Assembly (NCBI GenBank): GCA_016866775.1
Contig: VGLJ01000013.1
Location: 18,785-82,784, forward strand
Length of the DNA: 64,000 nt
DNA from: Candidatus Rokuibacteriota bacterium
GTDB taxonomy: Bacteria; Methylomirabilota; Methylomirabilia; Rokubacteriales; CSP1-6
Direction of reading: 5' to 3'
Shown here: positions 1,590-46,666 of the stretch, in pieces
How positions within the stretch are numbered: the stretch's first letter is position 1
Layout: each line of letters begins with the position of its first letter
Position numbers and translations under genes: made by a program
The notes under the pieces: model-generated
Told to the model about the DNA's origin: nothing
The model's input: only the letters and a program-made list of their open reading frames with translations
Database searches by the model: none

Positions 1590-2117
1590 GTGACGGCCGA
1601 GTCTCCGTCTGCGCGCGCCGACGAGAAGGAGCGCTCGGTTCTCGTGGGTGTCGTCACCAGCTCCGTCGGCCTTCCCTTCGGCATCCTCGCGGTCGTGCTC
1701 GCCAACTCCGTCGCCCTGCTCGCGGACCTCCTGCGTGCCGCCGCGGCGCTGGTGGCCGTCGTCCTCTCGTGGCTGACGCTGCGGGCCGTGCGCCGCGCAC
1801 GACCCGACGCCTTCAACTACGGCCTCGGCAAGCTCGAGAGCTCGGTGCACGATCTCCTCGATCGCGCGCTCGAGGAATCGCGCCAGCTGCTCATCGTCCG
1901 CGTGCTCGCGCAGCACTTCGACGCGTACGAGCACGTGCGCGAGGTGCGCTCGCGGCGCTCCGGCGCGCGCATCTACATCGAGATCTTCCTGGGCTTCGAC
2001 GCGAGCCGCACGCTCGGCGGGGTGCAGCGCGCGGTCGACGCGATGCGGGCCGACCTCGAGGCGCTCATCGCCGGCAGCAGCGTGGTGATCGTTCCGGCCG
2101 CGGTGCGACCCGCGTGA
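1590..2117 (+). pseudogene. Cation diffusion facilitator family protein with internal segment missing
   Basis: CDF N-terminus (VLANSVALLADLLRAAAALVAVVLSWL...FNYGLGKLES) joined directly to a CDF cytosolic domain-like end (SVHDLLDRALEESRQLLIVRV...EIFLGFD); TM3-6 absent. Confidence 0.6.
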
Positions 2118-2518: not shown

Positions 2519-2857
2519 CATCACGCCGCCGCACAGGCGCACCGCGCTCGCGACGATGGTCTGGAACACACGCTCGCGCGCCGCGAACGAGGGCCAGAGC
2601 GCGAACGAGAGGAGCGCGGCGATGCCGCCGTCGAGGGCCGCGTCCACGAACACGCTGCGGATCCCGGCGGTCTTCCGGTCGGCGGCCCTGCGGGACAGCG
2701 CGCGCCCGAGCGGTGCCCAGCCGACGACGAGCGCGGACAGGCCGAGCCAGACCACCGTATCGCCGGAGCGCGCCGTGAGCATGATCGCGAGCACGAAGAG
2801 GTAGCTCCCGACCCGGCCATAAAAGTTCAGACGGACGAGCGGATGCTCACGCGGCAT
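2518..2857 (-). pseudogene. MASE2-like membrane sensor domain, 3' truncated (catalytic domain missing)
   Basis: MPREHPLVRLNFYGRVGSYLFVL...VGWAPLGRALSRRAADRKTAGIRSVFVDAALDGGIAALLSFALWPSF resembles MASE2 domains of nucleotide cyclases. Confidence 0.5.
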
Positions 2858-2870
2858 GCGACGGAAACGT

Positions 2871-3053
2871 CTAGTCGCCCATGATCTCGCAGATGCCGAC
2901 CACTTCGTTGTAATACCCGTCGCACGACGCCGCCTCCGGCGCGACCGGCGCCTGGAAGTCCGCGTCACTGCGCACGTTCGCGACGGCATGCGTTCCGGCG
3001 CCCGCGGCGACGAGCGCGACCAGGCTGAGCGCTGCAGCGATCTTCGACTTCAT
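2871..3053 (-). CDS. Small secreted Cys-motif protein, family member A (60 aa)
   Basis: MKSKIAAALSLVALVAAGAGTHAVA... signal peptide; C-terminus SCDGYYNEVVGICEIMGD* matches members B and C. Confidence 0.7.
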   Translation of the reverse strand: MKSKIAAALSLVALVAAGAGTHAVANVRSDADFQAPVAPEAASCDGYYNEVVGICEIMGD

Positions 3054-21798: not shown

Positions 21799-21975
21799 TC
21801 AGTCGCCCAGCGAATCACACACGCCGGCCGCGGCGTTGTACCAGCCCTCGCACTTCGGCTCCTCGTACGTCGCCGGTGACGCGGTGCCGTTCTCGCCCAT
21901 CCCCGCGGACCGCGTTCCCGTCGCGCAGCCCGCGCACGCCGCGAGCATCACCAGTCCGAACACTGCGATACGCAT
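21799..21975 (-). CDS. Small Cys-motif lipoprotein, family member B (58 aa)
   Basis: MRIAVFGLVMLAACAGCATGTRSAGMGENGTASPATYEEPKCEGWYNAAAGVCDSLGD*; lipobox LAAC; matches members A and C. Confidence 0.75.
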   Translation of the reverse strand: MRIAVFGLVMLAACAGCATGTRSAGMGENGTASPATYEEPKCEGWYNAAAGVCDSLGD

Positions 21976-22025
21976 TGAAGTCACGCCGCGCCTCCTCGTC
22001 TCGTTTGTGGGACGACCACGCTCCC

Positions 22026-43829: not shown

Positions 43830-44015
43830 ATGCCTTGGAGAAGCGTGTTCGCGGTCGGGATCGTTGCGCTCGCGCTCTTCGCGGGCTGCGCCACAGGGAC
43901 CCAGTCGTCCGGGCAGGGATTCGCGAGCCCCGCGGATGCCGAGAGCCCACGGTGCAGCACGGGTCTGTACTGCAACCGTGCCGCCGGACTGTGCGTCGGC
44001 GGCGGACAGCAGGCG
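43830..44015 (+). CDS. Small Cys-motif lipoprotein, family member C (C-terminal end unresolved)
   Basis: MPWRSVFAVGIVALALFAGCATGTQSSGQGFASPADAESPRCSTGLYCNRAAGLCVGGG; N-terminal GCATGT-S-G and C-terminal AAG[VL]C align with member B; no stop before the convergent regulator, so end given is only where that gene begins. Confidence 0.6.
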
Positions 44016-44999
<984 letters not shown>

Positions 45000-45001
45000 C
45001 G

Positions 45002-46204
45002 TCACGCCGCCTCGACGGGGAATCGCATGGTGACCCGCGTGCCGCGCCCGGGCTCGGAGGCGATGTCGATGCGGCCGCCGTGCGCGGCGACGATCCGCTC
45101 GGCGATCGTCAGCCCGAGTCCGCTCCCGTTCGGCTTGCCCGAATAGAACGGCTCGAACACGCGCGCGAGCACGTCGGCGGGAATGCCGGGCCCGGTATCG
45201 CTCACCGCGAGCCCCACGTGCCCGTCCTCGCGGCCGACCTCGAACGACAAGCGCCCGCGGCCGTTCATCGCCTGCACGCCGTTGAGCGCGACGTTCCAGA
45301 GGACCTGCGTCACCTGGTCGCGCTCGAAGGGGAAGCGCGGCACGGCCGGGTCGACCGCCACTTTCACGTCCACACGGGGCGCGCGCGAGCTGCGGATCGC
45401 GCCGACCGTCGCCGCGCGCTCCTCCGTCGTGAGCCCGGCCTCGTCGGTGAGGAGCGCCGTGGCATTGACGATGGCGGCGAGCGGATTGCGGATCTCGTGC
45501 GCCATGCCGGCGGCGAGCTCGCCCGTCGTGGCGAGGCGCTCCGCTTCGCTCAGCCGCGCGTGGAGCCGCTCGCTCTCGCGGCGCGCGTGCTCGAGCACCA
45601 TGATGATGACGGCGAACGTCGAGAGGAAGTAGAGCGTGATGAACACGCCGTGCATCGTGAAGTACGCCGCCGACCCGGGCGGCGCGTCCACGAACTGCGT
45701 CCACACGCGATGCAGTCCCCACAGGACGAGCAGGCCGGCGAGCAGCCGCTCCCCACGCACGCGCCCGCGGCTCTCCTGCGTCCGCCACGGCCAGAACAAC
45801 GCGCCCGCCGCGATCTGCACGATGCCGAGCGCCGCGCCGACGACCTGAAGACCTTCACTGCCGCGGCCGAGCGTGGTCACGAGCGCCAGCACGAGCGCGA
45901 GCGCGCCGCCGATGAGGACGTCGCTGCGCCTGAGGCGATAGTCCCACCCGTGCGCGAGCGCCGCGGCGAGGATGAAGCCGACGGCCGCGACGGTCGCGAC
46001 ACCGGTCGCGACGCTCGGATCCTCGAGCCCGAAGATGACGACGTCCACGACGCGCAGGCCCTTCGACAGGCCGTACGCGCCCCAGCCGAAGAGGAGGTAG
46101 CGGAAGAACCGCAGGCGGTGCGACGAGTAGAGGTACGCGAAGATCAAGAGCTGGATCGCGAAGGCGACCGTCGAGATACAGGTCAGGACCAGCGGCACCG
46201 GCAT
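45002..46204 (-). CDS. Membrane sensor histidine kinase
   Basis: About 7 TM N-terminus; [57 protein letters not shown]. Confidence 0.92.
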
Positions 46205-46486: not shown

Positions 46487-46666
46487 ATGAAGCGCAGACA
46501 TGCAGTCGCACTCGGTCTCGCGGCGGTGCTCCTCACGAGCGCCGCGCACGCCGCGCAGGACGTGGTCGAAGCCCCGCGCGGCCAGGACGTCGTCGAGGCC
46601 CCGCGCAGCCAGGACGTCGCGCAGGCGCCACGTGGTGAGGATCCGGTCCAGGCGCCGCGCAACTAA
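46487..46666 (+). CDS. Small secreted tandem-repeat protein (59 aa)
   Basis: MKRRHAVALGLAAVLLTSAAHA + AQDVVEAPRG QDVVEAPRS QDVAQAPRG EDPVQAPRN*; AGGAGGA ribosome-binding site upstream. Confidence 0.75.
   Translation: MKRRHAVALGLAAVLLTSAAHAAQDVVEAPRGQDVVEAPRSQDVAQAPRGEDPVQAPRN
46556..46663 (+). repeat. Four tandem 27-bp (9-codon) units
   Basis: caggacgtggtcgaagccccgcgcggc and three diverged copies; consensus [QE]D[VP][VA][EQ]APR[GSN]. Confidence 0.9.

Follow-up and report, generated by a model that had tools for sequence, protein, structure and literature searches.

Reading frames at the locus

The window, as we call the whole stretch of DNA analysed (64,000 nucleotides), is part of a genome of 5.13 Mb that is 97.5% complete and has a G+C content of 69.7%. 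Together with the genes present, this high G+C content points to a probable Rokubacteria-like member of Methylomirabilota. Three related reading frames with a common layout, here named members A, B and C, lie inside 41 kb of this one genome. Each consists of an N-terminal export-type signal, a linker of about 20–25 residues rich in proline, alanine, glycine and serine, and a conserved C-terminal core.

From its translation and codon score, member A (2871..3053, minus strand) was assigned as an ORF of 60 aa that starts with a type-I-like signal peptide. The full minus-strand translation, MKSKIAAALSLVALVAAGAGTHAVANVRSDADFQAPVAPEAASCDGYYNEVVGICEIMGD*, confirms the 60-residue product with a C-terminal cysteine motif that the first-pass annotation had described; the plus strand of the same interval gives an unrelated translation. 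The motif CDGYYNEVVGIC (2889..2924, minus strand) is followed by EIMGD and the stop codon, and the whole protein contains two cysteines. Signal peptide cleavage, called by eye, is predicted after THAVA and would leave about 35 amino acids. A Shine-Dalgarno-like site, AAGGGGAGGAACAGC, stands ahead of the ATG. Using a codon model trained on the contig and including terms for the start codon and the Shine-Dalgarno site, the frame of A scored +26 and the other five frames were negative. Promoter- or terminator-like sites were sought at A and none were found.

The start of a truncated ORF for a MASE2 membrane domain (2525..2857, minus strand; PF05230, 26.3 bits with a cut-off of 25) is located 13 bases past the stop of A on the same strand, making it a possible co-transcribed partner. 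In other bacteria, MASE2 is usually found ahead of a cyclase domain. Member A could then regulate from the periplasm, as a small protein transcribed together with a MASE2-type membrane sensor whose signalling it modulates. Apart from the spacing, the shared strand and a score above the Pfam cut-off, this role would agree with the absence of both A and this MASE2 protein from the other genomes of the host's family that were searched. However, a clear Shine-Dalgarno site is lacking ahead of the MASE2 ORF, which breaks off at about 2525 and carries no enzyme domain. Proximity to MASE2 is the sole clue from gene context, and neither B nor C has a MASE2 neighbour; we regard a role of this kind as quite improbable. 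The MASE2 frame continues into the antisense of a patatin gene. At about 2525 the patatin-like gene (plus strand) and the MASE2 gene (minus strand) end abruptly together, as if an intervening stretch were missing through a genomic deletion or an assembly join. A cation-efflux protein of 175 aa (1590-2117, plus strand) has only the start of its family (2-68 of 198) together with the dimerisation domain, and the gene looks internally deleted, in frame.

Member B (21799..21984, minus strand) has a lipoprotein-like signal and encodes 61 aa if translation begins at GTG 21984, or 58 aa if it begins at ATG 21975. The GTG is better spaced from the Shine-Dalgarno-like site of B than the ATG and may be the start. 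The lipobox-like cysteine was read by eye as that of LAAC or CAGC, and two cysteines are found besides those at the signal peptide. The motif CEGWYNAAAGVC (21817..21852, minus strand) is followed by DSLGD and the stop codon. The codon score, from the same model with the same terms, was +16, with four of the five other frames negative. An unnamed convergent gene flanks B on one side and an aldo/keto reductase gene on the other. Elsewhere in the window, the genes for subunits A and B of topoisomerase VI are adjacent in this bacterial genome (12989-16002, minus strand).

Member C (43830..44018, plus strand) has a B-like lipoprotein start, FAGCATGTQSSG..., with a lipobox-like LFAGC as read by eye, and an altered cysteine core, CSTGLYCNRAAGLC (43953..43994, plus strand). 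Compared with B, the core has one extra residue before the glycine and one after the tyrosine, the latter being a third cysteine. The resulting spacing is C-x5-C-x6-C, giving three cysteines besides that of the lipobox, and the GD* end is absent. The frame beginning at ATG 43830 meets no stop before 44618, which gives 262 aa and a weak coding score, and it runs antisense through the gene of a convergent sigma-54 regulator, whose end is at 44016. Since there is no nearby stop and the frame passes antisense into the next gene, C as assembled does not yield a clean tiny protein, and its 3' end is here altered or lost. Of the three very small exported proteins previously proposed, A and B are therefore retained and C is not cleanly tiny.

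The neighbours of C are an APH-type kinase gene and that of the sigma-54 response regulator (44016-44999, minus strand). The regulator lacks the end of the receiver domain and the start of the AAA+ domain, matching Response_reg at 2-68 of 111 and Sigma54_activat from 46 of 168; without the AAA+ start, the protein seems to have lost, in frame, its ATP-binding region. Beside it, a histidine kinase gene (45002-46204, minus strand) matches HisKA at 3-45 of 66, with HATPase close after, and looks internally shortened. A 59-aa ORF at 46487-46666 (plus strand) has an export signal and four QDVVEAPRG-type repeats, and no Pfam match.

The missing stop of C, together with several neighbouring genes that look internally deleted, could indicate that all three ORFs descend from a single lineage-specific lipoprotein and are now decaying without a function. 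Against this, the frames of A and B are intact, with strong Shine-Dalgarno-like sites and good coding scores, and in both the C-terminal motif is complete down to its final residue. We consider decay of the whole set unlikely.

Similarity among the members

Both A and B end in C[DE]G[YW]YN-x3-G[IV]C[DE]x[ML]GD, so that two cysteines ten residues apart bracket G-[YW]-Y-N-x3-G. The claim that the motif of A recurs 19 kb away holds exactly in B (21799-21975, minus strand; 18.9 kb away). The full motif occurs twice in the window and not once in 20 Mb of random sequence generated by a first-order Markov model with the dinucleotide make-up of the window, and the loose form C.G.Y....G.C occurs once in that random sequence. 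Small proteins with export signals and a common cysteine-bracketed C-terminus, as represented by A and B, are thus beyond chance.

Pairwise similarity was evaluated with the signal peptides removed, using 20,000 shuffles per pair. The mature regions of A and B scored 71 against a shuffle maximum of 54, and those of B and C scored 89 against a maximum of 58. The similarity of A to C is weak when taken alone, being reached by 32 of the 20,000 shuffles. By these comparisons the similarities between A and B and between B and C are real and more than chance.

Members B and C are clear paralogues, because GCATGT-[QR]-S-x-G, ASPA and the core are common to both, and judged by sequence C is the closest paralogue of B. 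After the signal peptide the same residue is found at 25 of 41 aligned codons, with a different codon at 14 of the 25. The altered copy noted earlier at C thus stands as a paralogue, but with an extra cysteine and without the terminal GD. Differences between B and C at codon positions 1, 2 and 3 number 15, 13 and 24, and those between A and B over the last 17 codons number 3, 5 and 8. This third-position excess is what would be expected for selected coding sequence, and with so few codons the pattern is indicative rather than proof.

Distribution in other genomes

A profile of A and B found one further convincing place in the genome, at 43848-43994 of the window (plus strand), which is member C. 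Protein, pattern and profile searches of the genome gave no copies besides A, B and C, all on one contig. A search of 56 further genomes of the host's family with the C-terminal profile gave no members, and neither did searches of the order with a one-mismatch pattern and a B–C profile or of about 94 genomes of the phylum with exact patterns for the A/B core and the C core; exact patterns miss diverged relatives, and profiles of two to three sequences can miss fast-evolving small proteins. Weak profile matches in relatives were rejected, as they covered the signal or the linker, or low-complexity translations, and none contained the core. Homologues of the convergent neighbour of B are present in 31 relatives, and no B-like gene was found near the copies in the relatives that were fetched.

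An exact-pattern scan of 84,980 GTDB species gave 5 matches, against about 9 expected by a rough estimate assuming uniform composition; none of the 5 has an export signal, and they look unrelated. Viral contigs likewise gave 5 pattern matches, 3 of them one identical short sequence and none with an export signal, and tblastn against phages and plasmids found nothing. No long repeat is common to the DNA flanking A, B and C, which therefore gives no sign of a mobile element as carrier.

The first-pass annotation had called the family recurrent. Since no further copies or homologues turned up in the relatives searched, the refuting test proposed there speaks against a widespread family, while the copies in the window are still homologous to one another. 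On the searches made, the family is small and lineage-restricted, and local rather than widely recurrent.

Comparison with known families

That the proteins belong to no named family was upheld: searches of Pfam and PHROGs, and of NCBIfam and PADLOC for A and B only, gave no credible match, the best being far below cut-off, and no credible sequence relatives were found in PDB, also when using the A/B profile.

The core of the CBM_14 or peritrophin-A domain (PF01607) is a short cysteine-bracketed stretch with glycine, aromatic residues and asparagine, which the core of A and B resembles. The predicted hairpin might then be a minimal glycan-binding module, like the core of the invertebrate chitin-binding CBM_14 domains. 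This is a very improbable reading: the CBM_14 profile had no match over the whole genome at E<=10, Pfam gave no CBM_14 match on the A, B and C proteins, and PDB gave none for the A/B profile. The full set of CBM_14 disulfide cysteines is lacking too, as A and B have one core pair instead of several. Another likeness is to small bacterial lipoproteins and further small exported proteins confined to one lineage, which make up a broad class and no single family. With these the members share a signal peptide or lipobox-like cysteine, a length of about 60 aa, a Pro/Ala/Gly/Ser-rich linker and a narrow distribution. They differ from these in the shared cysteine-bracketed C-terminal core and in matching no named family by sequence.

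Predicted structure and proposed role

Two AlphaFold2 runs with shallow alignments gave paired strands at residues 47-49 and 54-56 in A and 45-47 and 52-54 in B. The strand blocks have pLDDT values of 66-72, and the whole models a mean pLDDT of 54-56 and a pTM of about 0.25. Structure prediction thus places a hairpin at the same position in A and B, but because overall model confidence is low the hairpin is a prediction only. An export signal, a flexible linker and a terminal core between cysteines would suit a disulfide hairpin that is either tethered or set free.

Our preferred reading, to which we give about an even chance, is that A, B and C are paralogous, lineage-restricted exported mini-proteins presenting a predicted disulfide-closed hairpin in the envelope. 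The two core cysteines would pair as a disulfide after export, and the core would fold as a beta-hairpin exposing the aromatic pair and the asparagine. B and C would be lipid-anchored in the envelope through the lipobox-like cysteine, and A would be a free, soluble periplasmic protein. Function may reside in the hairpin, which would bind a protein or glycan of the envelope, and the linker may serve to hold it at a distance. The family may have been born by duplication in this lineage, with C now diverging or decaying. The broader proposal of a new family of envelope-displayed disulfide-hairpin peptides, which one lineage would make both as soluble and as lipid-anchored proteins and which would recognise a common partner, is speculative and unlikely.

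A catalogue of new gene families drawn from uncultivated taxa gives its own total as 404,085 (PMC10849945). Because such catalogues already hold hundreds of thousands, the family formed by A, B and C would alone be a modest addition. If the proposal is true, paralogues anchored in different ways would have kept one tiny exported motif, and an orphan family open to testing would be added to an apparently uncultivated lineage.
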